Positions 30,401-45,802 of a DNA stretch of 64,000 bases are shown piece by piece. The DNA comes from Chloroherpetonaceae bacterium (GTDB taxonomy: Bacteria > Bacteroidota > Chlorobiia > Chlorobiales > Thermochlorobacteraceae): assembly GCA_025056565.1 (NCBI GenBank), contig JANWWA010000004.1, forward strand, positions 125,689 to 189,688. The letters are read 5' to 3'. The stretch's first letter is position 1, and each line of letters begins with the position of its first letter. A program made the position numbers and the translations under genes. Below the pieces are notes generated by a model, which was not told the DNA's origin, made no database searches, and saw only the letters and a list, made by a program, of their open reading frames with translations.

Positions 30401-31030
30401 ATGAGCGCAATTTTAGGTCGGAAAATCGGAATGACAAGCCTTTATGACGCAAAAGGCAAAGTCATTCCTTGTACAGTGATTGAGGCAGGACCGTGCTATG
30501 TCTCACAAGTGAAGACTGTTGAAAACGATGGTTATGCGGCGTATCAAATGGCCTTTGATGAAAAGAAAGAATCACGCACGCCAAAGCCGCAGTTAGGACA
30601 CTTCAAGAAAGCAGGTGTGCCGCCAGCCTATTTCGTGAAGGAATTTCGTGCAGAGGTAATGGGGCGTGAGCTGAAGGTAGGCGAGGTGGTAAAGGCTGAT
30701 ATTTTCAAGGAAGGAGATGTGGTCGATGTGATTGGCACCTCGAAAGGCAAGGGTTTTCAAGGTGTGGTGAAGCGTCATCATTTTGGTGGCGGCTGTCGCA
30801 CGCACGGTCAATCAGACCGCTGGCGCGCACCTGGTTCAATGGGCGGCTCATCGTTCCCATCACGCTCCTTTAAAGGAATGCGAATGGCAGGTCGAATGGG
30901 TGGTGAGACCGTAACAGTCAAAAACCTCAAGGTGGTTAAAGTGCTCGCCGATTCAAACTTGCTGGTCGTCAAGGGAGCTGTGCCGGGCAAAAACGGCGGT
31001 TATGTGCAAGTGGTAACTGCAAAAGGATAA
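30401..31030 (+). CDS. rplC: Large ribosomal subunit protein uL3
   Basis: This 209-aa protein binds near the peptidyl-transferase centre and starts 23S rRNA assembly. It begins [20 protein letters not shown] and carries [15 protein letters not shown] and the loop containing [21 protein letters not shown]. Normal length. rplD follows after 5 nt. Confidence 0.97.
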
Positions 31031-31035
31031 GGCTT

Positions 31036-31668
31036 ATGCAGGTCAAAGTTTTAACCAAGACAGGTCAAGAAAGCGGCGAAGTTATTGAACTGAGCCCAAA
31101 CATCTTTGAAATTGAGCCAAACGACCACGCCATCTATATGGATGTGCGCTCGATTATGGCTAATCAACGTCAGGGCACGCACAAGGTCAAAACGCGTGGT
31201 GAAGTGCGTGGCGGGGGCAAAAAGCCTTATCGCCAGAAAGGCACGGGAATGGCACGGCGCGGTTCACAACGCTCTCCACTTTTGCCCGGCGGTGGCGCTA
31301 TCTTTGGACCGAAACCACACGATTATGTAGTAAAAATCAATCGGAAGATGAAACAGCTAGCGCGTAAATCAGCGCTCAGCTACAAAGCCAAAGCCTCTGA
31401 AATCATCGTTGTAGAGGACTTTACCTTCGAACAAATCAAGACAAAAGAGATGGCAGCGGTGCTGAAAAATCTGGGTCTAAGCGAAAAGAAGACCCTCTTT
31501 CTCACCGCAGGCAAAAATGAGGTGCTCTATAAATCAGGGCGCAACATCCCTGACTTAGAAGTCCTCGAGGCACAAAAGGCGTCGACTTACGACATTCTCA
31601 ACTGCAAAATGCTCTTGCTGCAAAAGAGCGCGGTGAGAGTGCTGGAAGAAACCCTAAGTATGAACTAA
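31036..31668 (+). CDS. rplD: Large ribosomal subunit protein uL4
   Basis: This 210-aa protein lines the exit tunnel; the extended loop [27 protein letters not shown] is present, as is [19 protein letters not shown] at the C-terminus. In E. coli L4 also represses its own S10 operon by attenuation. The tuf-rpsJ hairpin offers a conceivable target, but that is speculative. Confidence 0.97.
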
Positions 31669-31678
31669 GGAGAGAAAC

Positions 31679-32011
31679 ATGACACTGTCCGAGGTGCTAA
31701 TTCGCCCACTGCTGACAGAAAAAGTGATGAAGCTAAGCGAGGAAAAGAATCAGTATGCCTTTGAAGTGCACCGTGAAGCGACAAAGGAAGAAATTAAAAA
31801 AGCCGTAGAGGAAAAGTTTGGGGTCAAGGTTGTGTCGGTGCGCACGGCGAACATTGAAGGTAAGCGCAAGGTACGTTTTACGCGCAAGGGCTTGCAAGTC
31901 GGCAAAAAGCCCGACATTAAGAAAGCATATGTAACGCTGGATAAAGACTCCAAGATTGATTACTACGCCGCATCAGGAGGGAGCAGTGGGGGCGAAACGC
32001 CACAAGGATAA
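31679..32011 (+). CDS. rplW: Large ribosomal subunit protein uL23
   Basis: This 110-aa protein sits at the tunnel exit and docks trigger factor, SRP and SecYEG. It starts [20 protein letters not shown] and has the conserved [17 protein letters not shown]. It has a short serine/glycine-rich C-terminal tail. An AGGAG precedes the start. Confidence 0.96.
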
Positions 32012-32029
32012 TCCGAAAGTGAGGAGACT

Positions 32030-32869
32030 ATGCCAATTCGCAATATGAAGCCACGGACGCCCGGAACGCGCTTTATGTCGTTTCCGACGTTCGAAGAAAT
32101 CACAAAAACAGAGCCAGAGAAAAGTCTGATTGTGCCACTGCGCAAGACAGGCGGTCGCAACAACTTAGGGCGAATCACCTGTCGGGGACGAGGCGGCGGA
32201 GCAAAGCGGCATTACCGCATCGTTGACTTTAAGCGCGACAAAGACGGCATCAATGCGACCGTGCTGGCTATTGAGTATGACCCCAACCGCTCTGCACGCA
32301 TTGCGCTGTTGGAGTATGAGGATAAAGAACGGCGCTACATCTTAGCGCCCAATGGTTTGAAAGTAGGCGACAAGGTTGAAACAGGTGAGAGCGCTGACAT
32401 CAAAATCGGCAATGCGTTGCCATTGAAAAATATCCCTGTCGGCACCGAGGTGCACAACGTTGAAATGCGAGCTGGAAAGGGAGGGCAAATTGCGCGCAGC
32501 GCTGGAGCATTTGCAATTCTTTTAGCAAAAGAGGGTAATTACGCTACACTGAAAATGCCATCTGGCGAACTGCGCAAAGTGCGTGTCGAGTGCAAAGCCA
32601 CAATCGGCGTCGTAGGGAACTTAGATCACGAAAATATCTCGCTCGGCAAAGCGGGTCGCTCACGCTGGCTGGGACTGCGTCCCATCACGCGCGGTATGGC
32701 ACGCAACCCTGTCGATCATCCAATGGGCGGTGGCGAAGGTCGCTCTAAGTCTGGTGGCGGTCGCAGGCATCCAAGGTCGCCTTGGGGACAGCTGGCAAAA
32801 GGCTTTAAGACCCGCAATCGCAAGAAAGCTTCCCAAAAACTGATTGTGCGAGATAGACGAAAGGCATAA
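32030..32869 (+). CDS. rplB: Large ribosomal subunit protein uL2
   Basis: This 279-aa protein supports subunit association and the peptidyl-transferase centre. It contains [22 protein letters not shown], and [22 protein letters not shown] with the functionally important histidine. C-terminal [15 protein letters not shown] is typical. Normal length. Confidence 0.97.
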
Positions 32870-32883
32870 CCATCTGAAGTGCT

Positions 32884-33183
32884 ATGGCTCGTTCACTGAA
32901 AAAAGGTCCATTCATTCAAGCGCGCCTCTTGGAGCGCATTAGAGAACTGAACGAAAAGGGACAGAAAAAAGTCTTGAAGACTTGGTCTCGGGCGTCTATG
33001 ATTTCGCCAGAGTTTGTGGGGCATACGATTGCAGTCCATAACGGCAAGACGCATATCCCTGTCTATATCACCGAAAATATGGTAGGACACAAGCTCGGCG
33101 AATTTGCGCCCACACGAACCTTCAGAGGACATACACCGGGCGACAAGAAAGAAAAAGCGGGTTCAGCACCTGGCAAAAAGTAA
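32884..33183 (+). CDS. rpsS: Small ribosomal subunit protein uS19
   Basis: This 99-aa head protein begins [19 protein letters not shown] and contains [22 protein letters not shown] and [15 protein letters not shown]. The C-terminus has a short Lys/Ala/Gly extension over the usual 92 aa. Confidence 0.97.
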
Positions 33184-33194
33184 AAGGAAAAGCG

Positions 33195-33638
33195 ATGGGA
33201 GCAAGAAAACGCGAAGCAGCTGAAGCGCGCAAAGAAGCGCGCCGCCAAGCCAGTCGAAGCCGAGCGGTGCTAAGGCACATGCCGACCTCACCACGCAAGA
33301 TGAGGCTGGTAGTGGATTTGGTGCGTGGCAAAGATGTAGAGACGGCAATGGCCATCTTGCAGAACTCTACTAAGCACGCTGCACGCACCGTGATGCGCAC
33401 GCTCAAATCAGCAGTGTCAAACTACCTAAATCGCAATCCAAATGACCCTGTTAGCGAGCGCGATTTAGTTATTGTGGAAGCCTTCGTCAATGAAGGGGTC
33501 ACGCTAAAGCGCATCTTGCCTGCGCCGATGGGTAGAGCCTACCGCATTCGCAAGCGTTCTAATCATCTTACGATTGTTGTAGACAAGCGCAAGCCAGTGC
33601 GTGAAAAACAGCCAAAAGCCGACGCAAAAAACGCTTAA
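33195..33638 (+). CDS. rplV: Large ribosomal subunit protein uL22
   Basis: This 147-aa tunnel protein has an Arg/Ala-rich N-terminal extension of about 20 residues before [20 protein letters not shown]. The core ends with the tunnel loop [21 protein letters not shown], where deletions cause macrolide resistance in other bacteria; no deletion is seen. Confidence 0.95.
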
Positions 33639-33664
33639 CCACAAACTAAGAAAGGAAACGACTC

Positions 33665-34474
33665 GTGGGTCAAAAAGTTAATCCAATAGGCTTTCGATTG
33701 GGCATTATCAAAGATTGGGACTCTCGCTGGTATGACAACTCGAGAAGTGTCGCCGATAAGATTAAAGAAGATTACGTGATTCGTAACTATGTCACAACTC
33801 GCTTAAAGCGACAGAAAGCGGGCGTCTCAAAGGTCGTAATTGAACGGACGACCAAGAATATCAAGCTCTATATCTATGCTGCACGCCCAGGTGCAGTGGT
33901 GGGCAAGAGTGGCGAAGAAATTAACACACTAAGCCAAGAGTTAGGGAAGCTCACAAAGAAGGAAGTCAAAATTGATGTCATTGAAATTAAGAAGCCTGAA
34001 TTAGATGCGCAGTTGGTTGCAGACAATATTGCAGCGCAACTGGAAGGGCGTGTGGCATTTCGCCGAGCAATGAAACAAGCAATTCAGCAGGCAATGCGCG
34101 CAGGTGCAGAAGGTGTGCGCGTGCAAGTGAGTGGTCGCTTGGGCGGTGCCGAAATTGCGCGTATGGAGCAGTATAGGGAAGGAAAAGTGCCGTTGCACAC
34201 GCTGCGCGCAAACATTGACTATGCGCAGAGCACCGCCTTCACCATTACAGGCACGGTAGGCGTGAAAGTGTGGATTTACAAAGGTGAGGTGCTCGGCCAG
34301 CGAATTGAAGCGCTCGAGGAAGAAGAGCGCCAGAAGGTGCGGGACCGCCGAGAAAGTGCCAGAGCACGTGGTCGTCAGGAACAAAAGCAAGGTAAGCGTC
34401 GCCGCCGTCGCAGAGGGGGCTCAAAAAGCACTGCGTCGCAGGAAGGTGGAAGCAATCAAGCACCTGAAAGCTAA
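33665..34474 (+). CDS. rpsC: Small ribosomal subunit protein uS3
   Basis: This 269-aa protein of the mRNA entry channel begins at a GTG ([19 protein letters not shown]) with AGGAAA upstream. The KH domain shows [14 protein letters not shown], and [25 protein letters not shown] follows. The C-terminus has a basic Arg/Lys/Gly/Ser-rich tail of about 45 residues, longer than in E. coli. Confidence 0.96.
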
Positions 34475-34491
34475 AAAGGAGGGCAGCTCTA

Positions 34492-34935
34492 ATGAGTTTA
34501 CTAATGCCAAAGCGCGTCAAGTATCGCAAATCGCAGCGCGGGCGTATTCGTGGAAACGCCACACGTGGCACAGAAGTGGCCTTCGGATCTTTCGGACTAA
34601 AAGCCCTGGACCCGGGCTGGATTACCAGCCGCCAAATTGAAGCAGCCCGTATTGCAATGACGCGCTATATGAAACGCGATGGCAAGACATGGATTCGCAT
34701 CTTCCCTGATAAGCCTGTTACAAAGAAGCCAGCAGAGACCCGAATGGGTTCAGGTAAGGGTTCGCCAGAGTTTTGGGTCGCTGTCGTCAAACCGGGTTGC
34801 ATTATGTTCGAGATTGATGGGGTGCCGAAAGCAACAGCCGAAGAAGCATTTCGCTTGGCTGCTGCAAAGTTACCAGTTAGGACAAAGTTTGTCGTGCGCC
34901 CTGACTATGAAGAAACTTCAGCAGCGAAAAAGTAA
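34492..34935 (+). CDS. rplP: Large ribosomal subunit protein uL16
   Basis: This 147-aa protein organises the A-site region. It starts [18 protein letters not shown] with a GGAGG 9 nt upstream, which supports this ATG over the internal one at 34504. Conserved are [15 protein letters not shown]-like [15 protein letters not shown] and [21 protein letters not shown]. Confidence 0.96.
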
Positions 34936-34950
34936 AGAAGGAGATGCACC

Positions 34951-35175
34951 ATGAAAAAGTATGAGATTGCTGCACTGACTGAGGCAGAGATGAAAGCACG
35001 TATCAAGGAGTGCAAACAGCAGATTGCGAACATCAAGTTTAACAAAGTCATTGAGCCGCCTACGAACCCGATGATTTTGCGCAATCTGCGAAAAGATATT
35101 GCGCGAATGAAAACACGATTGCGGCAGATGCAACTTCAAAGAGAAAAAGAAGCTTCAAAAAATAAGGAAGCCTAA
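34951..35175 (+). CDS. rpmC: Large ribosomal subunit protein uL29
   Basis: This 74-aa two-helix protein contacts the tunnel exit. It starts MKKYEIAALTEAEMKARI and carries IEPPTNPMILRNLRKDIARMKT. An AAGGAG lies just before the start; rpsQ follows after 3 nt. Confidence 0.94.
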   Translation: MKKYEIAALTEAEMKARIKECKQQIANIKFNKVIEPPTNPMILRNLRKDIARMKTRLRQMQLQREKEASKNKEA

Positions 35176-35178
35176 GCT

Positions 35179-35502
35179 ATGTCGGAGCAAGAAATGCTTT
35201 CTCAAACGCCAGCTGAGGCGCCAAAAGATGAGCCAGCGCGACCAGCTGAAAAGAAGAGCCTCAAACGCGAAAGAATCGGCAAGGTTATCAGCGACAAGAT
35301 GCAGAAGAGCATCGTGGTAGCGATTGAACGACGTGTGCAACACCCAATTTACAAGAAATACTTTAAGAAAACGACCAAGATTATGGCGCACGATGAGCAC
35401 AACGAGGCTAAAGTAGGCGATACGGTGCGCATCGTGGAGTTTCGCCCAATCAGCAAGCGCAAATCATGGGTCTTAGCTGAGATTATTGAACGGGCGAAGT
35501 AA
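35179..35502 (+). CDS. rpsQ: Small ribosomal subunit protein uS17 with N-terminal extension
   Basis: This 107-aa OB-fold protein has a 30-residue Glu/Ala/Lys/Pro-rich N-terminal extension before the core [20 protein letters not shown]. The core ends [20 protein letters not shown]. The usual length is about 85 aa. An internal ATG after the extension is not available, so the extension is probably translated. Confidence 0.94.
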
Positions 35503-35537
35503 TTCAGCTAAACAGAGATGAAAGGAGCGTTGAGCAA

Positions 35538-35906
35538 ATGATTCAAAATGAAACAAACTTAGTCGTAGCGGACAATAGTGGGGCTAAGAAAGTCCGAGTA
35601 ATTCACGTGCTTGGTGGCACGCGTCGCCGCTATGCACGTATTGGCGATGTGGTTGTTGTATCGGTAAAATCAGCTATTCCGGGCGGAACAGTGAAAAAAA
35701 AGGAAGTCTCACGCGCAGTGGTCGTGAGAACCAAGAAGGAATACCGCCGCAAAGATGGCTCCTACATTCGTTTTGATGAAAATGCGGTGGTGCTTATCAA
35801 TGCGCAAGGCGAGCCACGCGGCACGCGTATCTTTGGACCCGTTGCAAGAGAGTTGCGTGATAAGCAATACACGAAAATTATTTCACTTGCGCCAGAAGTG
35901 TTGTAA
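35538..35906 (+). CDS. rplN: Large ribosomal subunit protein uL14
   Basis: This 122-aa protein forms intersubunit bridge B8. It starts [19 protein letters not shown], contains [20 protein letters not shown] and ends [23 protein letters not shown]. Its stop lies 22 nt before a tRNA-Gly gene. Confidence 0.97.
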
Positions 35907-35928
35907 ATTCAAACCCCCCAAGAATGAT

Positions 35929-36001
35929 GCGGGAGTAACTCAGTTGGTAGAGTCACAGCCTTCCAAGCTGTTGGTCGCGGGTTCGAGTCCCGTCTCCCGC
36001 T
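35929..36001 (+). tRNA. tRNA-Gly (TCC) inside the spc operon
   Basis: A complete cloverleaf folds: acceptor GCGGGAG/CTCCCGC, D arm ACTC-AGTTGGTA-GAGT, anticodon stem ACAGC/GCTGT with loop CTTCCAA (TCC), T arm GCGGG-TTCGAGT-CCCGT, discriminator T. CCA is not encoded. It lies on the sense strand in the 117-nt spacer between rplN and rplX, with 22 nt on each side, and shows no promoter or terminator of its own. RNase P and RNase Z processing would cut the ribosomal-protein mRNA here. Confidence 0.95.
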
Positions 36002-36023
36002 CAAACTTTGAAACGGGTCAGTT

Positions 36024-36299
36024 ATGAAAACAGGGGTCAAGCGACCAAAGATGCATATCAAGAAAGGTGACACGGTCGAGCTTCTAAAAACGATTACTTC
36101 ATCGGAAGCAGTCCGTGCTGACAGAGAAAAAGGCTATCAGGGTAAAGTGCTGCGCGTCTTCCCTGAAACCAACCGAGTAATTGTCGAGGGCGTGAACATA
36201 CGCCGCAAACACATACGCCCGAATAAAAATTACCCGCAGGGCGCTATCATTGAGCGGGAGATGCCAATTCACGCCTCGAACGTGCGCAAAGTGTCATAA
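36024..36299 (+). CDS. rplX: Large ribosomal subunit protein uL24
   Basis: This 91-aa assembly-initiator protein contains [17 protein letters not shown] and [20 protein letters not shown], the KOW-type fold. The first nine residues precede an internal ATG (36051), so a slightly shorter product is possible. If the upstream tRNA is processed, its mRNA would begin 22 nt before this start. Confidence 0.94.
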
Positions 36300-36349
36300 T
36301 CTCTTCAAATAACGGAGGTGACCAAGACCATCTCTTAATCACGCACGCT

Positions 36350-37009
36350 ATGGCAGACAAAGAGCAAAAGAAACAAGAGCCAAAAGAGCAAAAAAAACAA
36401 AAGCAAAAGAAGACTGAGGAAGCGGCTAAGGCACCAGCAACTATGTCAAATGAGCCAGCGCCGCCGCCACGGCTCTTAGTGAAATACCGCCAAGAGGTGG
36501 TAAGGCGCTTGATGGAGCAGTTCAAATATAAAAATGTGATGATGGTGCCACGCCTCGAGAAGATCTGCATTAACATGGGTATTGGTGAGGCAGCACAAGA
36601 CCCGAAATTGCTCGACACAGCCGCAAAGGAGCTGGCACTCATTACAGGACAGAAGCCTGAGATTCGTAAAGCCAGAAAATCCATTGCAAACTTCAAACTG
36701 CGAGAAGGTCAGCCCATCGGTTGTCGCGTAACGCTGCGCCGCGCCCGAATGTATGAATTTATGGATAGACTCATCTCACTGGCGATTCCGCGCATTCGAG
36801 ATTTCAGGGGTGTGAGCGACAGCAGTTTCGACGGCCGAGGCAATTACACCTTGGGCATTAAAGAACAAATTATTTTTCCTGAGATTGATATTGACAAAGT
36901 AACGAAGATCAACGGAATGGATATCACCTTCGTAACCACTGCCAAGACAGACGAAGAGGCTTATGCCTTGCTAAAAGAACTGGGAATGCCATTCCGAAAG
37001 AAAAACTAA
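36350..37009 (+). CDS. rplE: Large ribosomal subunit protein uL5 with Lys/Gln-rich N-terminal extension
   Basis: This protein binds 5S rRNA. The core from about residue 40 ([18 protein letters not shown]) and motifs [37 protein letters not shown] and [20 protein letters not shown] are standard. As drawn it is 219 aa, about 35 longer than usual, because of a low-complexity K/E/Q/A extension. An internal ATG at 36443 gives 188 aa. Neither has a good ribosome-binding site; the strong GGAGG at 36315-36319 is 30 nt from 36350. Confidence 0.9.
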
Positions 37010-37018
37010 ACCATACCC

Positions 37019-37288
37019 ATGGCAAAGAAAAGTGTGATTGCACGCAACGAAAAGCGCAGGAGGCTGATTGAGAAATACGCAGAGCTGCGCAAGAAGCTGA
37101 AAGAAGAAGGCAATATGGATGCTTTGCGTGAACTACCGCGCGACAGCTCGCCAACACGGTACCGAAACCGCTGCGCAATTACAGGCAGGGGACGAGGAGT
37201 CTATCGCAAGTTTGGTGTCTGCCGCCACATTCTTCGAAAGTTTGCCTTGGAAGGCAAAATTCCAGGAATGAAGAAAGCAAGTTGGTAA
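37019..37288 (+). CDS. rpsN: Small ribosomal subunit protein uS14 (zinc-free form)
   Basis: This 89-aa protein lacks the CxxC-x-CxxC zinc ribbon and has the C-minus motif [21 protein letters not shown] followed by the basic C-terminus. Length fits the Bacteroidota/Chlorobiota form. An 83-nt structured spacer separates it from rpsH. Confidence 0.95.
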
Positions 37289-37310
37289 AACCTAACCCTG
37301 TAAGTTCAAC

Positions 37311-37357
37311 CTTCGTGGCTGCCGCAGTGCAATGGCGAGCCTGCGGGACGCACGAAG
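37311..37357 (+). promoter_or_regulatory. Long hairpin upstream of rpsH
   Basis: CTTCGTG (37311-37317) pairs with CACGAAG (37351-37357) and CCGCAG (37322-37327) with CTGCGG (37341-37346), separated by a symmetric 4x4 internal loop and capped by a 13-nt loop. It ends 14 nt before the rpsH ATG. There is no T-run. A structured RNA directly before the S8 gene could be an S8 autoregulatory site, as S8 represses the spc mRNA in E. coli; sequence identity to the S8 site was not established. Confidence 0.5.
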
Positions 37358-37371
37358 AAATCTAAACCGCT

Positions 37372-37767
37372 ATGCCAGTAACAGATCCAATTGCAGATTA
37401 CTTAACACGCATTCGTAACGCAGCGAAAGCTAAGCATAAGACAGTTGATATCCCAAGCTCAAAGCTCAAGGTGGGCATTACGCAACTGTTGAAAGATAAG
37501 GGATACATCAAGGACTTCACAGTGATTGAGTCTGGGAAGTTCCCAATAATTCGTATCCAGCTCAAATATGATGCGTTTGGGCAGCATGCGATTAAGACTT
37601 TGCAGCGTGTCAGCACGCCCGGACGACGCGTCTATGAAGGCAAGAACATCAAAAAGTATCTGGGTGGACTGGGGCTATCAATCCTCACAACCTCGAAGGG
37701 CTTGATGACTGATAAGGAAGCCCGCGCTGCAGGGGTTGGCGGTGAAGTCCTCTTTCGCATCAGTTGA
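37372..37767 (+). CDS. rpsH: Small ribosomal subunit protein uS8
   Basis: This 131-aa central-domain protein begins [20 protein letters not shown] and ends [24 protein letters not shown]-type ([20 protein letters not shown]) RNA-binding segment is intact. In E. coli it represses the spc operon; the preceding hairpin at 37311-37357 is a candidate target. Confidence 0.96.
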
Positions 37768-37791
37768 TCCAGAGAGAAAGGAGATGCTAAA

Positions 37792-38331
37792 ATGTCAAGA
37801 ATTGGCAAGAAACCAATCCCATTAGTCAAAGGCGTGAAGGTCGAGGTAAAAGACGGTCTTATCAAAGTTGAGGGACCGAAAGGTAAGTTGGAATATCCGC
37901 TGCGAGGTGCACTCACGGTGAAGGTAGAACCTGACAGTGTAAAAGTAGAACGACAAAATGACGAGAAACAAACCAAGGCGATGCACGGACTCTATCGTGC
38001 GCTAATCAACAATATGATTGTCGGTGTCTCACAAGGCTACACACGCAAGTTAGAGCTAGTGGGAGTTGGTTACAAAGCCGAAGCAAAGCAAAACTACATC
38101 ATTTTTTCACTAGGGTATTCGCACCCGATCTATTTCAGACCGCCAGAAGGTGTTAGAGTGGAAGTGCCGCAACCAACCAGCGTCGTTGTAAGTGGGATTG
38201 ATAAGGAGCTGGTAGGTAGCGTCGCTGCGAAGATTCGCTCGTTCAAAAAGCCAGAGCCTTACAAGGGCAAAGGCATCAAGTATGAAAATGAGGTCATTCG
38301 CCGCAAAGAAGGCAAGACTGCAGGTAAGTAG
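37792..38331 (+). CDS. rplF: Large ribosomal subunit protein uL6
   Basis: This 179-aa two-lobed protein starts MSRIGKKPIPLVKGVKVEV and includes GYTRKLELVGVGYKAEAK and the C-terminal signature PEPYKGKGIKYENEVIRRKEG-type segment. AAGGAG precedes the start. Confidence 0.97.
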   Translation: MSRIGKKPIPLVKGVKVEVKDGLIKVEGPKGKLEYPLRGALTVKVEPDSVKVERQNDEKQTKAMHGLYRALINNMIVGVSQGYTRKLELVGVGYKAEAKQNYIIFSLGYSHPIYFRPPEGVRVEVPQPTSVVVSGIDKELVGSVAAKIRSFKKPEPYKGKGIKYENEVIRRKEGKTAGK

Positions 38332-38338
38332 AGACAAA

Positions 38339-38390
38339 TTTTCCTTAACCTGAAAGCGAGAGCTTCGCTTTCGCAACTGTTTTAGGAAAA
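38339..38390 (+). promoter_or_regulatory. Two-part hairpin covering the rplR ribosome-binding site
   Basis: The inner stem GAAAGCGA (38352-38359) / TCGCTTTC (38365-38372) is perfect with a 5-nt loop. An outer stem TTTTCCT (38339-38345) / AGGAAAA (38384-38390) would pair the AGGAAA Shine-Dalgarno-like sequence and the A of the start codon. It could limit rplR translation unless opened by ribosomes finishing rplF. Confidence 0.45.
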
Positions 38391-38749
38391 TGATTCTGAA
38401 ACGAAAACGCAGAGAGAAAATCAGAGCACGAGTTCGCGCAAAGATAAGAGGCACTGCAGAGCGACCACGCCTCTCCGTCTATCGGAGCTTGAAACATATC
38501 TATGCACAGATTATTGATGATGAAAAAGGCGAAACACTCGTAGCCATAACCAGCAATTCAAAAGCATTTGCACCGATGCTGAACGGCAAAAAGAAAGTAG
38601 AAGTGAGCCGAGAAATCGGTAGGATGCTGGCTGAGAAAGCTAAGGCAAAAGGTATCACGAAGGTTGCGTTTGACCGAAATGGATATCGCTATCATGGACG
38701 TGTGAAAGCCTTAGCAGATGGGGCACGAGAAGGCGGGCTGGAGTTTTAA
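38390..38749 (+). CDS. rplR: Large ribosomal subunit protein uL18
   Basis: This 119-aa 5S rRNA-binding protein has the opening [19 protein letters not shown] and conserved [46 protein letters not shown]. Its start codon lies in the outer stem of a predicted hairpin. Confidence 0.97.
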
Positions 38750-38766
38750 TCAAAACCAAGTCAAAA

Positions 38767-39294
38767 ATGCCAAAAGTAACTACACAGGCTAAGAAAAAAG
38801 TTAAGCCAGGGGAGCTAAACTTAAAGGAAAAGCTGGTGCAAGTGAATCGCACGGCAAAGGTAGTGAAAGGTGGCAAGCGCTTTGGGTTTAATGCGATTGT
38901 CGTCGTTGGCGACGGAGAAGGGCATGTGGGCTATGGCTTAGGTAAGGCAAATGAAGTGCAGGATGCAATTGCGAAGGGGGTTGAAGATGCAAAGAAAAAC
39001 GTCTTCGAAGTGCCGATCGTGAAGGGCACAATTCCGCACGAAGTGTTTGCAAAGTTCGGTGCAGCAAAGGTGCTGCTCAAGCCAGCCACGCCCGGCACAG
39101 GAATCATCGCAGGTGGCGCAGTACGTGCTGTCTTGGAAAGTGCAGGGGTTAAGGATGTGCTCACCAAATCACTCGGCTCATCAAATCCGCATAATGTCGT
39201 AAAGGCGACCATCAAGGGTTTGCTGAGCCTGAGCGATGCACGTGATGTCGCCATGCGTCGTGGTAAAACTCTGAAAGAAGTCTTCGAAAGCTAA
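38767..39294 (+). CDS. rpsE: Small ribosomal subunit protein uS5
   Basis: This 175-aa fidelity protein has [20 protein letters not shown], the RNA-binding loop [20 protein letters not shown] and a C-terminal [10 protein letters not shown]. No change in the loop linked to spectinomycin resistance is obvious. Normal length. Confidence 0.97.
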
Positions 39295-39307
39295 ACTCAG
39301 TAGAGCG

Positions 39308-39514
39308 ATGTCAGAGTCAGCGGCACAACCAAAAAAGAAACTGAAAATCACGCAAGTTCGCAGCATCATAGGCTCAACAAAAAAACAAAAAGCGACTATC
39401 AGAGCACTGAAGCTGGGAAGACCCAACTACTCTGTAGTCCTGAACGATGACCCCCGTCTGAGAGGACAGCTCGAGGTAGTTGCCCACTTGGTAAAAGTGG
39501 AGGAACTGAACTAA
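39308..39514 (+). CDS. rpmD: Large ribosomal subunit protein uL30
   Basis: This 68-aa protein shows KKKLKITQVRSIIGSTKKQK and LKLGRPNYSVVLNDDPRLRG. This matches the typical L30 pattern, with a short Ser/Ala N-terminal lead. It sits between rpsE and rplO as in the E. coli spc operon. Confidence 0.95.
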   Translation: MSESAAQPKKKLKITQVRSIIGSTKKQKATIRALKLGRPNYSVVLNDDPRLRGQLEVVAHLVKVEELN

Positions 39515-39569
39515 GGACGCTTAATTTGCGGCTTACACAATTCCAGAAACGCTTGAAACGGAAACGACA

Positions 39570-40151
39570 ATGAACCTCAGCACACTGCGTTTTGCGAAAG
39601 GGTCAAGAAAAACACGCAAGCGCGTCGGACGCGGACCTGGCTCTGGTCTGGGCACAACCGCAGGTCGAGGCACGAAAGGGCATAAGTCGCGTAGCGGTTA
39701 CACCAGCTCACTGAAAGAGGGCGGTCAGATGCCGTTTTTCCGCCGCATTCCAAAGTTTGGCTTCATAAATCCCAGTCGTGAAGAGTATGAAACGATTAAT
39801 GTGGGACAGATTGAGGCGTGGATAAAAAAAGGTAAATTGACGCCCGAAGTATCGCTGGAAGCCTTAGCGAAAATTGGTGTGCCAGCCAGACGTCGTCGCA
39901 TAAAAGTACTTGGCAACGGCGACATTACAGTAGCAATTACCATTACAGCGCATGCATTTAGCGAAAGCGCAAAGGAAAAAATTGAAAAAGCAGGCGGCAA
40001 AGTTATCTTAGCAGAGCGCACACTCGAAGAAGCTGAGCGAATGCAGAAGACAAAGCCACTTGACGAAGCGCTGCTGACACCAAAGAAGCCTGTTGAGGAA
40101 ATCAAAAAAGCAGCCAAGCTAGCACGCAAGGCTGCAGCAGCCAAAAAATGA
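39570..40151 (+). CDS. rplO: Large ribosomal subunit protein uL15 with C-terminal extension
   Basis: This protein begins MNLSTLRFAKGSRKTRKRVG and contains RGPGSGLGTTAGRGTKGHKS and the C-terminal ERTLEEAE. At 193 aa it exceeds the usual 145-150 by a Lys/Ala-rich tail of about 40 residues. secY follows after 17 nt. Confidence 0.95.
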   Translation: MNLSTLRFAKGSRKTRKRVGRGPGSGLGTTAGRGTKGHKSRSGYTSSLKEGGQMPFFRRIPKFGFINPSREEYETINVGQIEAWIKKGKLTPEVSLEALAKIGVPARRRRIKVLGNGDITVAITITAHAFSESAKEKIEKAGGKVILAERTLEEAERMQKTKPLDEALLTPKKPVEEIKKAAKLARKAAAAKK

Positions 40152-40168
40152 TTAACCCATAGAGACTG

Positions 40169-41503
40169 ATGAAGCTCATTGATAGCATTCGGAACATCAG
40201 CAAGATTCCAGAACTGAGAGATAGGATTCTCTACACGGTAGGATTGCTGGTTGTCTATCGCATTGGGTCGCATATCACCATTCCGGGCGTAGATGCCTCA
40301 GCGGTTGCTGAAGCAGGGCAAGGACCGACCAACGATTTGTTCGGACTGTTTGATCTCTTCGTAGGAGGCGCATTTAAGCGCGCTTCAGTGTTTGCATTGG
40401 GTATTATGCCCTACATCTCCGCCTCAATCATTATTCAACTGCTAGGTGCAGTAACGCCGTATTTTCAGAAACTTCAAAAAGAAGGGGAAGAAGGGCGTAA
40501 GAAAATCAACCAGCTTACGCGCTATGGAACTGTGCTGGTAGCGATGTTGCAGGCATGGGGCGTAAGTGTTAGCCTCTCAAGCCCAGCCTCGTTTGGGCAG
40601 CCAATTGTGCCTGAACCTGGCTTTTTCTTCACCCTTTCAACCATCATCACATTGACGGCAGCGACCATTTTCACGATGTGGCTGGGTGAGCGCATCACTG
40701 AGCGAGGCATCGGCAACGGCATTTCGCTTATCATTATGATTGGTATTTTGGCACGCTTCCCGCAAGCCTTAGTGGGTGAATGGCAACTGGTGGCATCAGG
40801 AAGCAAGAATCTCATCGTAGAAATCATTGTGTTAGGTGTCATGCTGCTGATTGTGGCAGGTGTTGTGTTTCTAACAGTGGGCACGCGCCGAATTCCCGTG
40901 CAGTATGCACGACGAGTGGTGGGCAGGAAAGTCTATGGTGGCACCACACAGTATATTCCAATGCGAGTCATTACTGCAGGCGTAATGCCTATTATCTTTG
41001 CTCAGTCAATTATGTTTATTCCAAGCACAATTGTCTCATTTTTCCCCGAAAGTGAGGCCATGCAGAGCATCAATGCCTTTATCTCATATGATTCATGGGG
41101 CTATGCCATCATTTTCGGCATTTTAATCGTGTTTTTCACATACTTCTATACGGCTATAGCCTTTAATCCGAAGGATGTGGCGGATACGATGCAAAAACAA
41201 GGTGGATTTATTCCTGGCGTGCGCCCCGGAAAGCCAACAGCAGATTTCATTGACAACATTCTTACCCGCATTACATTACCCGGGGCAATCGCATTAGCAA
41301 TTATTGCAATTTTGCCTACGCTGCTGACTAAATTTGGGAACGTAACCCCGGGCTTTGCACAGTTTTTTGGAGGAACAAGTCTGCTCATCATTGTCGGCGT
41401 AGCGCTGGACACGCTGCAACAAATTGAAAGCCATCTGCTGATGCGCCACTACGATGGCTTTATGAAGTCAGGTAGACTCAAAGGGCGCAGCGTGCCTGCC
41501 TAA
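40169..41503 (+). CDS. secY: Protein translocase subunit SecY
   Basis: This 444-aa integral membrane protein is the channel of the Sec translocon, with about ten spans. TM2 region FGLFDLFVGGAFKRASVFALGIMPYISASIIIQLL is a hallmark, as are GERITERGIGNGISLIIMIGIL and the cytoplasmic loop FNPKDVADTMQKQGGFIPGVRPGKPT. It ends the spc part of the cluster and is followed by map; adk is absent between them. Confidence 0.97.
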   Translation: MKLIDSIRNISKIPELRDRILYTVGLLVVYRIGSHITIPGVDASAVAEAGQGPTNDLFGLFDLFVGGAFKRASVFALGIMPYISASIIIQLLGAVTPYFQKLQKEGEEGRKKINQLTRYGTVLVAMLQAWGVSVSLSSPASFGQPIVPEPGFFFTLSTIITLTAATIFTMWLGERITERGIGNGISLIIMIGILARFPQALVGEWQLVASGSKNLIVEIIVLGVMLLIVAGVVFLTVGTRRIPVQYARRVVGRKVYGGTTQYIPMRVITAGVMPIIFAQSIMFIPSTIVSFFPESEAMQSINAFISYDSWGYAIIFGILIVFFTYFYTAIAFNPKDVADTMQKQGGFIPGVRPGKPTADFIDNILTRITLPGAIALAIIAILPTLLTKFGNVTPGFAQFFGGTSLLIIVGVALDTLQQIESHLLMRHYDGFMKSGRLKGRSVPA

Positions 41504-41523
41504 ACTAAAAGAGAGAAACGCAG

Positions 41524-42354
41524 ATGGTTACAGCACGAAGCGAATGGGAAATTGACATAATGAGAGAAGCTGGGAGAATTGTAGCTGAGACATTGGATAT
41601 GTTAGAGGCTGAGATAAAGGAAGGGGTAACGACGAAACGACTGGATGAATTAGCTGAGGACTACATTCGCTCACAAGGTGCAAAGCCGAGTTTTTTGGGC
41701 TATGTGCCGAAAGGAGCACGCAACACCCGACCATACCCTGCGACGCTTTGCACATCTATCAATGAAGAAGTTGTGCACGGCATTCCAAGTCCGAAGCGCG
41801 TGCTCAAAGATGGAGATATTATCTCAATTGACTGTGGAGCCTGCAAAGACGGCTACCACGCCGATTCAGCTCGAACATTTTTGGTTGGCAATGTAAAGCC
41901 AGAAGTGGTAAAACTCGTAAAAGTAACTGAGACCTGTTTGGAGCTGGGAATTAAGGAAGCCGTAGTTGGGAAACGGCTATACGATATCTCTGCTGCCATT
42001 CAGCAGTATGCAGAAAGCTTTGGCTATGGTGTGATTGAAAATATGGTGGGGCATGGAATTGGTACACGCCTGCACGAAGAGCCACCTGTGCCGAACATTG
42101 GAAAGCGTAATACAGGTGTCTTCCTAAGGGAAGGAATGTGCTTGGCAATTGAGCCGATGATTAACTTAGGCAAGTCTCGCAAGTCTATCATTGCGGCAGA
42201 TACTTGGACAGCGATTACAAGTGACAAGAAACCTGCGGCACACTTTGAGCATACTGTAGTAGTGCGCAAAGGTCAGGCAGAGATTTTAACCCTATCCCGA
42301 AAGCATAAATCTGCCGTAGAAGAGGCTGCAGAGAAAAAAGTTGAAACCATATAA
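41524..42354 (+). CDS. map: Methionine aminopeptidase, type I
   Basis: This 276-aa metalloprotease removes the initiator Met. Metal ligands are in [19 protein letters not shown] (two Asp), [17 protein letters not shown] (His), [10 protein letters not shown] (Glu) and FEHTVVV (Glu). A short Glu/Lys-rich C-terminal extension is present. It lies between secY and infA, as in many bacteria. Confidence 0.96.
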
Positions 42355-42377
42355 TCTCAACCAAACAGGGAAGGAGT

Positions 42378-42596
42378 ATGGCAAAGGAAGAAGCAATTGA
42401 GATTGATGGCGTGATTTTGGAAGCCTTACCGAATGCAAATTTTAGAGTAAGGCTGGAAAACAACCTTGAGATTTTGGCGCATGTATCGGGCAAGATGAGA
42501 ATGAATTTCATCAAGATTTTGCCCGGCGACCGTGTACGCGTTCAAGTGTCCCCATATGACTTCAGCAAGGGGCGGATTACCTACCGCTTTAAGTAG
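42378..42596 (+). CDS. infA: Translation initiation factor IF-1
   Basis: This 72-aa OB-fold factor starts [20 protein letters not shown] and contains [32 protein letters not shown]. Length is exact. A GGAAGGAG lies before the start. The 88-nt gap to rpmJ holds a separate promoter. Confidence 0.97.
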
Positions 42597-42611
42597 CACT
42601 GCACAACGCAG

Positions 42612-42643
42612 TTTTGCAAATTAAGGCAAATACAGTATCTTTG
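42612..42643 (+). promoter_or_regulatory. Bacteroidota-type promoter before rpmJ
   Basis: TTTTG at 42612-42616 and TATCTTTG at 42636-42643 are 19 nt apart, ending 41 nt before rpmJ. It would drive rpmJ-rpsM-rpsK-rpsD-rpoA-rplQ independently of the S10-spc transcript. Confidence 0.7.
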
Positions 42644-42684
42644 CGCCCTTTCTGTCTTACAGCAATTGAAAACAAACAATCACG

Positions 42685-42801
42685 ATGAAAGTCTATTCAG
42701 CCGTCAAAAAGCGCTGCGAAGCCTGCAAAATTATTCGCAGGAAAGGCAAGATTCTGGTGATTTGCAAGAAAAATCCAAACCATAAACAGCGTCAAGGATA
42801 A
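42685..42801 (+). CDS. rpmJ: Large ribosomal subunit protein bL36 (zinc form)
   Basis: This 38-aa protein reads [20 protein letters not shown] and ends [13 protein letters not shown]. The zinc ligands are CEAC, the later C and H, so it is the C-plus form. It is 1 nt from rpsM. Short length is normal. Confidence 0.95.
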
Positions 42802-42802
42802 G

Positions 42803-43183
42803 ATGAGAGTTGCAGGAGTTGATCTTCCAAGAAATAAGCGTGCCGTTATCGGGCTAACTTACATTTACGGCATTGGTAGAACATCAGCAAAAAAAATTCT
42901 CGCCAAAGCAGGTATTAGTGAAGATAAGCGTATTGGCGAACTGACAGACGATGAAGCCAATGCGATTCGCAATATCATCGCCACGGAGTATAAAGTGGAA
43001 GGACAGGCGCGTAGCGAGCAGCAGCTTGCCATCAAGCGGCTAATGGATATTGGCTGCTATCGTGGGCTGCGGCATCGCAAAGGATTGCCTGTTAGAGGGC
43101 AACGCACGCGCACTAATGCACGCACCCGAAAAGGTAAGCGCAAAACTGTGGCAGGTAAGAAGAAAGCTGTCGCAAAGAAATAA
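42803..43183 (+). CDS. rpsM: Small ribosomal subunit protein uS13
   Basis: This 126-aa head protein starts [20 protein letters not shown] and contains [17 protein letters not shown] and the C-terminal [19 protein letters not shown]. Its ATG comes right after the rpmJ stop. Confidence 0.97.
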
Positions 43184-43198
43184 TCTGGACGCAAAGAT

Positions 43199-43594
43199 AT
43201 GGCAACAGAGAAAACCACTACAGCAAAGCGCAAGAAGAAAGTTGCTGCAACGACCGAAGGAATCGCGCACATCAAAGCGACCTTTAACAATATTCTTGTA
43301 ACCATTACCGATATGGCGGGCAACACAATCGCGTGGTCGACCGCTGGCAAGAATGGGTTCAAGGGTTCGAAGAAAAACACACCATATGCGGCGCAAGTAA
43401 CGGCGGAAGCTGCAGCCAGAGAAGCGGCAGAGCATGGTGTGCGGAAGGTCGATGTGCTCATCAAAGGTCCAGGATCGGGACGAGATGCAGCGATTCGCTC
43501 TCTGCAGACGGCAGGCTTAGAAGTTCGTTCTATTCGCGACATTACGCCACTGCCGCACAATGGCTGTCGCCCACCTAAGCGCAGAAGAGTCTGA
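43199..43594 (+). CDS. rpsK: Small ribosomal subunit protein uS11
   Basis: This 131-aa platform protein has a Lys/Thr-rich N-terminus, then [21 protein letters not shown] and [22 protein letters not shown] with the ending [13 protein letters not shown]. Confidence 0.97.
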
Positions 43595-43633
43595 GTTGTT
43601 CAAAACCGATGTCAATCACCTAAGCATTTCTAT

Positions 43634-44245
43634 ATGGCAAGATATCTGGGTTCAACTGCTAAGGTTTCACGACGCCTTGGCGTGGCAATTGTGCCGAAAG
43701 ACGAAAAATACTTAGACCGCAGACCATACCCTCCAGGTCAGCACGGTCAGAACAAGAAGGGTAAGATTTCTGAGTATGCGGTGCAACTGCGCGAAAAGCA
43801 AAAGATGAAGTATATCTACGGCGTCTTGGAGCGCCAGTTCCGACTTTACTTCGAGAAAGCCTCACGGATGAAAGGCGTAACAGGCGACAATCTGGTCAAG
43901 ATGTTGGAATCAAGGTTAGACAATGTCGTCTATCGCGCAGGGTTTGCGCCAACTCGTCCAGCTGCCCGACAGTTAGTTACGCACTGCCATCTACTGGTCA
44001 ATGGCAAGAAGGTGAATATTCCATCGTATCAGCTGCGTCCAGGTGATGTGATTGAGTTTCGTCCGAAGAGCAAAAATCTGGAAGTAGTGCGTAACTCCCT
44101 TAACAAAAAGCCTGACTCACAGATCCCACAGTGGATTCAGGTTGATAAGGCGAACCTGAAGGCAGTGTTTCTGAACGCGCCTGAACGCAGCGAAGTGCAA
44201 GAACCGTTTAACGAGCAGCTGGTGGTCGAACTCTATTCTAAGTAG
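43634..44245 (+). CDS. rpsD: Small ribosomal subunit protein uS4 (zinc-free form)
   Basis: This 203-aa assembly initiator starts [20 protein letters not shown], lacks the N-terminal cysteine zinc site, and has the S4 domain [38 protein letters not shown]. In E. coli S4 represses the alpha operon. Confidence 0.97.
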
Positions 44246-44294
44246 GCTGAGGGAAGTTCGCTTACTTGCTTGCTAAACCAAACTAAGGAGCACT

Positions 44295-45287
44295 ATGATT
44301 CAACCGATGCAGATGCCAGAGCGGTTGGAGCTTGATGAGAGCACTTTTTCTAACCAGTTCGGTCGTTTCATTGCACAGCCACTGGAACGCGGCTATGGCG
44401 TAACAATAGGCAACGCAATGCGACGTGTCTTGCTCTCATCGCTGCCCGGCACAGCTATCACAGGTATCAAAATTGAGGGGATTCTACACGAATTCTCCAC
44501 GATTGAAGGAGTCAAGGAAGATGTGCCTGATATTATCCTGAACCTCAAGCAGGTGCGCTTCCGCTCTATTAGCAAGCGCAATGCAATGGTTTCACTCACG
44601 CTGAAGGGGCCAAGAGACTTCGTAGCAGGGGATATTGTCAGCCCGGAAGCAGACTTCGAGGTGCTCAATCCTGACCTTCACATTGCCACAATTACAAAGA
44701 ATGTAACCGTGAAGATGGATATCTATGTTGGGCGAGGACGTGGATATGTGCCTGCTGAGGAAAACAAGCCTGAAGGAATGCCATTGGGGTTCATTGCCGT
44801 AGATTCTATTTTCACGCCGATTCGCAATGTCAAATACACAGTGGAGAACACACGCGTAGGGCAGCGAACTGACTACGAAAAACTTATTTTGGAAGTTACA
44901 ACCGATGGCTCAATTCAGCCCGATGAAGCGGTCAGTCTTGCAGGAAAGATTATTGCCGATCACGTAAGCCTCTTTACCAAGTTTGCACCGACCGCTGAGG
45001 AAGAGCCCGTCGAGCAAGAAGTAAAGGAAGATGACGCTGAGTTTGAGCGCATTCGCAATCTTTTGATGACACGAATGGAAGACATTGAGCTATCGGTGCG
45101 CTCGCATAACTGCCTGCGCTCAGCTGAGATTGAAACGCTTGGACAGTTGGTCAGCAAGCGAGAAGAAGAACTCCTAAAATTCAAAAATTTCGGCAAAAAG
45201 TCACTGGCTGAGCTTAAAGAACTCGTGGAGTCGAAGGGGCTACACTTTGGAATGGACGTTTCAAAGTATCGCTTGAACGAAAAGTAA
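44295..45287 (+). CDS. rpoA: RNA polymerase alpha subunit
   Basis: This 330-aa subunit has the dimerisation domain with [23 protein letters not shown] and the C-terminal domain with [20 protein letters not shown] and [16 protein letters not shown], which contacts UP elements and activators. An acidic linker joins them. AGGAG lies before the start. Confidence 0.97.
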
Positions 45288-45307
45288 CACCATCCGATTG
45301 AACGGCA

Positions 45308-45802
45308 ATGCGAAAACGAATTTCACTAAGGAAATTAGGGCGCACCGCTAGCCATCGCCGAGCCACAATGGCTAACCTGTGCACGCAGCTCATCTTGCAC
45401 AAGCGCATACGAACCACTGAGGCGAAAGCCAAAGAAATGCGGCGTTACATTGAACCGCTGATCACACGCGCCAAAGAAGGCACAGGCCACGCCCAGCGAG
45501 AGGTCTTCAAGTTTATCCGCAATAAAAAGGCTGTCAAAGAACTTTTCACCGAAATCGCAAACAAAGTAGGCGATAGACCAGGCGGTTACACCCGAGTAAT
45601 CAAGATGGTACCACGCTATGGCGATGCTGCCAAAATGGCAATGATTGAGCTGGTCGACTACAGCGAAGCACCTACGGAACGGCGACGTCAGCGTCAAGAC
45701 CGTGAAAAGCGCGTGCGCGGCTCCAAAGAAGCGCAAAGCAAAGCCGCCGCAGCAAAAGAATCAACTGAGGGCAAAAAGGAGGCAGCGGCAGGAGCGGCGT
45801 AG
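45308..45802 (+). CDS. rplQ: Large ribosomal subunit protein bL17 with C-terminal extension
   Basis: This protein begins [20 protein letters not shown] and contains [20 protein letters not shown] and [26 protein letters not shown]. The 164-aa length includes a Glu/Ala/Lys-rich tail of about 40 residues. It is the last gene of the cluster, followed by a terminator at 45829-45854. Confidence 0.96.

Follow-up and report, generated by a model that had tools for sequence, protein, structure and literature searches.

A tRNA-Gly(UCC) gene relocated into the spc ribosomal-protein operon of Chlorobiales

It was found that the only tRNA-Gly(UCC) gene of a Chlorobiales genome (G000) lies between rplN and rplX, inside the spc operon of ribosomal-protein genes, and that this position is shared by nearly all genomes of the order. 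The gene was relocated from a tRNA cluster and, in the window (the whole stretch of DNA that was analysed, 64,000 nucleotides in length), lacks a promoter-like element of its own. It is likely that the relocated gene is now part of the spc transcription unit, being cotranscribed with its neighbours and excised from their mRNA, which would be split by the excision. Few gene orders are as well conserved in bacteria as that of the S10-spc-alpha cluster. With a sole essential tRNA fixed in the middle of this cluster, either each spc mRNA would have to cope with tRNA excision or read-through would have to supply the tRNA pool.

ARAGORN and Rfam (RF00005; 69.8 bits against a gathering threshold of 29, E 3.6e-13) agree on a complete tRNA-Gly(UCC) on the plus strand at 35929..36001. 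These 73 nt are the mature part; the ARAGORN end at 36002 is one base beyond the discriminator. The sequence has the structure of a functional tRNA-Gly(UCC), with an intact cloverleaf, a TCC anticodon, and a discriminator U. The CCA tail is absent from the gene, as it is from most tRNA genes of G000. On the 5′ side lies the ORF of rplN (ribosomal protein uL14; 35538..35906, plus strand), whose orthologues in Chlorobiales and Ignavibacteria are 78-97% identical. The closest rplN loci, 92-95% identical, belong to Candidatus Thermochlorobacter aerophilum and Thermochlorobacteriaceae MAGs, and the window is from a Thermochlorobacter-like genome within Chlorobiales. On the 3′ side lies the ORF of rplX (ribosomal protein uL24; 36024..36299, plus strand), whose start is backed by an MKTG.K N-terminus conserved in relatives. 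In the 117-nt rplN-rplX gap, the tRNA is flanked by 22 nt per side: a spacer (35907..35928) and a leader before rplX (36002..36023), both on the plus strand and unstructured in the fold. The surrounding S10-spc-alpha cluster, from rplC to rplQ (30401..45802, plus strand), has the canonical order according to its ORFs and its synteny with relatives. Thus, the tRNA predictions, the ORF coordinates, and the synteny all bear out the preliminary description of a complete sense-strand tRNA-Gly(TCC) in a 117-nt gap of an otherwise canonical operon. The same strand, the close coding genes, and promoter and terminator scans at background are the marks of a mixed tRNA-mRNA operon.

An Rfam search found 44 tRNA genes in G000, and an ARAGORN reading of all 44 gave a single gene for each of Gly(TCC), Gly(CCC), and Gly(GCC). 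Since the copy in the spc operon is the only tRNA-Gly(TCC) among them, no other reader of GGA codons was found in this genome.

Is this arrangement common in Chlorobiales? In a comparison that includes draft MAGs among the assemblies, rplN was detected in 85 of the 98 genomes of the class. All of these 85 rplN-rplX gaps were read, and 84 contain the tRNA-Gly(TCC). A search with the tRNA sequence gave one near-identical match per genome in every genome with rplN. In the 13 assemblies that lack rplN, no near-identical copy was detected either, which is expected of a gene confined to the rplN-rplX locus. The arrangement is thus fixed order-wide, and its conservation is far beyond chance; an insertion by lateral transfer limited to the window's genome is excluded by the same distribution. 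The distance from the rplN stop codon to the tRNA is 18-35 nt in the window's genus (g1), 9-13 nt in Chlorobiaceae (family f2), 5-8 nt in a Chloroherpeton-like family (f3), and 70-82 nt in the genera g3 and g4. In g2 it is 163 nt, and this longer stretch includes a degenerate tandem copy ahead of the intact tRNA.

The sole exception, G089, revealed where the gene came from, a point that the preliminary description, correct in its observation, had overlooked. The rplN-rplX gap of G089 is short, measuring 33-57 nt according to which start codon is taken, and contains no tRNA. Its Gly(TCC) gene instead sits in a Thr-Tyr-Gly-Thr-Trp-secE cluster, with a degenerate Gly copy ahead of it. The Ignavibacteria outgroups also retain Gly(TCC) in this cluster, which reads Tyr-Gly-Thr-Trp in G098 and G100; in the outgroup G099 it is Thr-Tyr-Gly-Thr-Trp-Cys. 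The Gly gene is gone from the cluster of G000, G025, G087, and G093, which reads Thr-Tyr-Thr-Trp. Since Gly was lost from the cluster in the Chlorobiales checked but kept in G089 and the outgroups, the tRNA-Gly(TCC) gene was relocated. Judged from these gene orders, it moved between two transcription units related to translation, from the tRNA cluster to the spc operon. A single clean relocation does not fit the tree of concatenated operon proteins (19 proteins; 14 for the locus of G089), because G089 is placed as the sister of family f1 with a support of 100/99. The simplest readings are that G089 underwent a reversal, or that a copy entered the spc operon and the two genes coexisted for a time before being lost differentially. 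Two independent insertions into the same gap are possible but less likely than these. Degenerate tandem tRNA-Gly-like copies lie directly 5′ of the intact gene in the rplN-rplX gap of G090 (L032/L127) and in the Tyr-Gly gap of G089 (L298). The degenerate copies of G090 and G089 have an altered D-loop, GTAACC.GAGC, in common, while their genomic positions differ.

The promoter model was the Bacteroidota motif TTTG-N18-21-TAnnTTTG, scored out of 10. Most stand-alone tRNA genes of the window's genome are preceded by this motif with a score of 8-10. In contrast, the 120 nt upstream of the spc tRNA reach 7/10, which is the commonest score of random sequence, and the 22-nt spacer holds no promoter-like element above background. 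A sigma-70-type scan of 35400-36400 gave one promoter-like site (35641-35670) at shuffle level, and a terminator scan of the same region gave one minus-strand terminator-like site, also at shuffle level. Neither folding nor scanning found a terminator or an attenuator within the rplN-rplX gap of the window. Between 26 and 46 kb, a score of 10/10 is reached only once (shuffles 0.0), by an element TTTG-N19-TATCTTTG between infA and rpmJ (42613..42643, plus strand). It serves as a positive control, and the scan is therefore able to see promoters inside the operon. This perfect match may be a separate promoter, suggesting that the alpha operon has its own start. The consensus was calibrated on 10-44 tRNA loci per Chlorobiales genome, and full matches to it are few among the tRNAs of Chlorobiaceae; the scores upstream of the spc tRNA in Chlorobiaceae are mostly 6-8.

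Can the tRNA be released from a common transcript? The genome of the window has an RNase P RNA (RF00010, 235 bits), which would serve for the 5′ cut, expected at the 3′ end of the spacer (35928/35929). RNase E/G is also present. On the other hand, profile searches found no RNase Z above the TIGR02651 cut-off in 31 Chlorobiales genomes, G000 included, and none above the NF000801 cut-off in 5 of those 31. Each of the two models gave a match in all 14 control genomes, with a score above the cut-off in 9 of them, and NF000801 passes in the outgroup G099. The weak RNase Z-like matches in Chlorobiales that were read are, by their appearance, PhnP-type or other proteins of the metallo-beta-lactamase fold. 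The preliminary description had given rplX a new 5′ end 22 nt before its ATG. Such an end presumes a cut at the discriminator, of the kind that RNase Z makes, and no canonical RNase Z was found in the order. Since RNase E/G is present, the 3′ cut may instead fall inside the leader. Thus, precise cleavage at 36001 is uncertain, and the 3′ end of the tRNA may be made by another nuclease and then trimmed. The apparent absence of RNase Z, together with tRNA genes that mostly lack an encoded CCA, makes the route of 3′ processing a concrete question.

In Chlorobiaceae, the leader between the tRNA and rplX is 31-36 nt in length and 72% AU. Its pairwise conservation is 72%, versus 54% for the third codon positions of rplN and 48% for the gap on the 5′ side of the tRNA; outside Chlorobiaceae, the leader is not conserved. 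The conserved Chlorobiaceae leader is compatible with a single-stranded entry site for RNase E/G or with translation signals of rplX. An upstream ORF was considered and rejected; an ATG is conserved in the leader, yet its reading frame varies between species.

For the window, and for the majority of the order, the data are best explained by cotranscription with rplN followed by excision. In the Chlorobiales ancestor, the gene would have been moved or copied from the Thr-Tyr-Gly-Thr-Trp-secE cluster into the rplN-rplX gap, and the old copy would have been lost later. The tRNA, which in the window and the greater part of the order probably lacks its own promoter, would be transcribed together with rplN. 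RNase P would then cut its 5′ end; its 3′ end would be freed within the short rplX leader, by another cut or by trimming, and CCA would be added afterwards. The mRNA would be divided into a part from the S10 genes to rplN and a part from rplX to secY.

Alternatively, the tRNA could be an independent unit that lies within the operon: it would be transcribed from a promoter of its own, some lineages would also have a dedicated terminator, and the operon would be read through it. This is unlikely, but some lineages have elements of the kind that it calls for. The g4 genomes have ATTG, CTTG, or TTGG-N18-20-TATTTTTG or TATCTTTG 25-30 nt before the tRNA (9/10), and g3 has TATCTTTG 38 nt before the tRNA in a 9/10 motif. 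In the window's own genus, matches overlapping the rplN stop codon score 9/10 in G097 and 8/10 in G096, where the window carries just TAAATTCA. A hairpin with a T-run, terminator-like and with a fold z of -3.1 to -5.2, stands between the tRNA and rplX in g4. It is not a dispersed repeat; the exact 14-nt arm occurs once each in G093, G092, and G095, at the tRNA locus. Against an independent unit stand the random-level score of the window and, in f2 and f3, gaps of 5-13 nt, too small for a promoter outside rplN, with scores mostly of 6-8. The claim that the tRNA has neither promoter nor terminator holds in the window. Strict coupling of the tRNA to the operon is not obligatory in the order, since promoter-like elements occur in g3 and g4 and terminator-like ones in g4. 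Because g3, g4, and G097 carry promoter-like matches, a weak promoter may have been overlooked. It is extremely improbable that the gene is a pseudogene or a misassembly, a tRNA-like remnant left in the gap. Degenerate tandem copies do exist at such sites, in the gap of G090 and in the cluster of G089; however, the intact cloverleaf, the 100% identical tRNA sequence in G090, G096, and G097, the same site in 84 independent assemblies, and the lack of a second genomic copy exclude this.

A different question is whether the tRNA is kept in the operon for the sake of the mRNA. It might be a deliberate punctuation mark under selection, giving each half of the mRNA its own stability or stoichiometry, or tying the supply of tRNA-Gly(UCC) to the output of ribosomal proteins. 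I regard this as doubtful. Its order-wide retention would agree with it, but retention follows anyway from an essential single-copy tRNA, which is kept wherever it has landed; conservation therefore does not show a regulatory role, and a regulatory split of the mRNA is a hypothesis here. The conserved AU-rich leader also speaks for the idea, but it is confined to Chlorobiaceae. The tRNA is the sole GGA reader, and in a crude comparison GGA makes up 20% of the Gly codons in the S10-spc-alpha genes versus 13% in the other long ORFs of the window. On the other side, G089 has no tRNA at this site, and in g3 and g4 elements resembling promoters or terminators have been added; that the layout is open to change is evident from the g4 genomes and from G089. 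A specific form of the idea may be put forward tentatively, as one that is more probably wrong than right. The embedded tRNA would be a fixed cutting signal of the spc mRNA where, in the absence of RNase Z, RNase E/G enters the conserved AU-rich leader. One event would then both mature the sole GGA-reading tRNA and make a 5′-monophosphorylated rplX-secY mRNA with its own decay. If so, decoding capacity would be tied to the supply of ribosomal proteins. The order offers a natural experiment on tRNA excision versus mRNA stability and stoichiometry, having an embedded tRNA in most genomes, a tRNA flanked by a promoter-like element and a hairpin in g4, and none in G089.

Transcripts shared by a tRNA and a protein gene are known. 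The secG-leuU transcript of E. coli, said to have been described by Mohanty and Kushner in 2008, reportedly holds a tRNA and a protein gene and is processed by RNase P, with leuU reportedly at its 3′ end. The spc tRNA is proposed here to share a transcript with protein genes in the same manner; in Chlorobiales, by contrast, a long mRNA continues after the tRNA. A closer parallel is thrU-tyrU-glyT-thrT-tufB, a mixed tRNA-mRNA operon of Salmonella and E. coli. In Salmonella, no tRNA other than the glyT product is predicted to read GGA, and glyT is probably essential (PMC6134099). The same tRNA thus shares its transcript with a translation gene in the tufB operon (PMC6134099), and the order thrU-tyrU-glyT-thrT matches the cluster of G089 and the outgroups. 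In the tufB operon, however, the tRNAs lead, next to the promoter, whereas the Chlorobiales tRNA stands alone in mid-operon with coding genes on both sides. In mitochondrial transcripts, tRNAs act as punctuation and their excision frees the flanking mRNAs (for example, PMC11144196). Excision of the spc tRNA would likewise release flanking mRNAs. Mitochondrial punctuation is organelle-wide and uses RNase P and RNase Z, in contrast to one site in Chlorobiales, where the profile searches found no RNase Z. A search of open-licence papers yielded no description of a tRNA within the Chlorobiales spc operon and no transcript map of Chlorobi. The Chlorobiales arrangement is thus of a known type, the mixed tRNA-mRNA operon, in a new form, the order-wide one in the spc operon.

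A similar case was found in a sister lineage. Ignavibacteria have a single sense-strand tRNA inside the same operon, a tRNA-Gln(TTG) between rplR and rpsE (L037:9059-9130, L040:9126-9197, L041:3512-3583, L042:9050-9121, L045:9030-9103, L047:9068-9139, and L048:9064-9135). Because both the tRNA and the gap differ, this is an independent event. Two minor observations concern other loci. In g4 (L033, L034, L035, and L060), the strong hairpin in the middle of the spc operon is conserved as GCGTCAATCTTCAC...GTGAGATTGACGC followed by AAAATTTTT. In a Patescibacteria contig, too, a tRNA-Gly(TCC) lies near the S10 operon, with rpsC about 2.7 kb downstream of it (L104:674-749).
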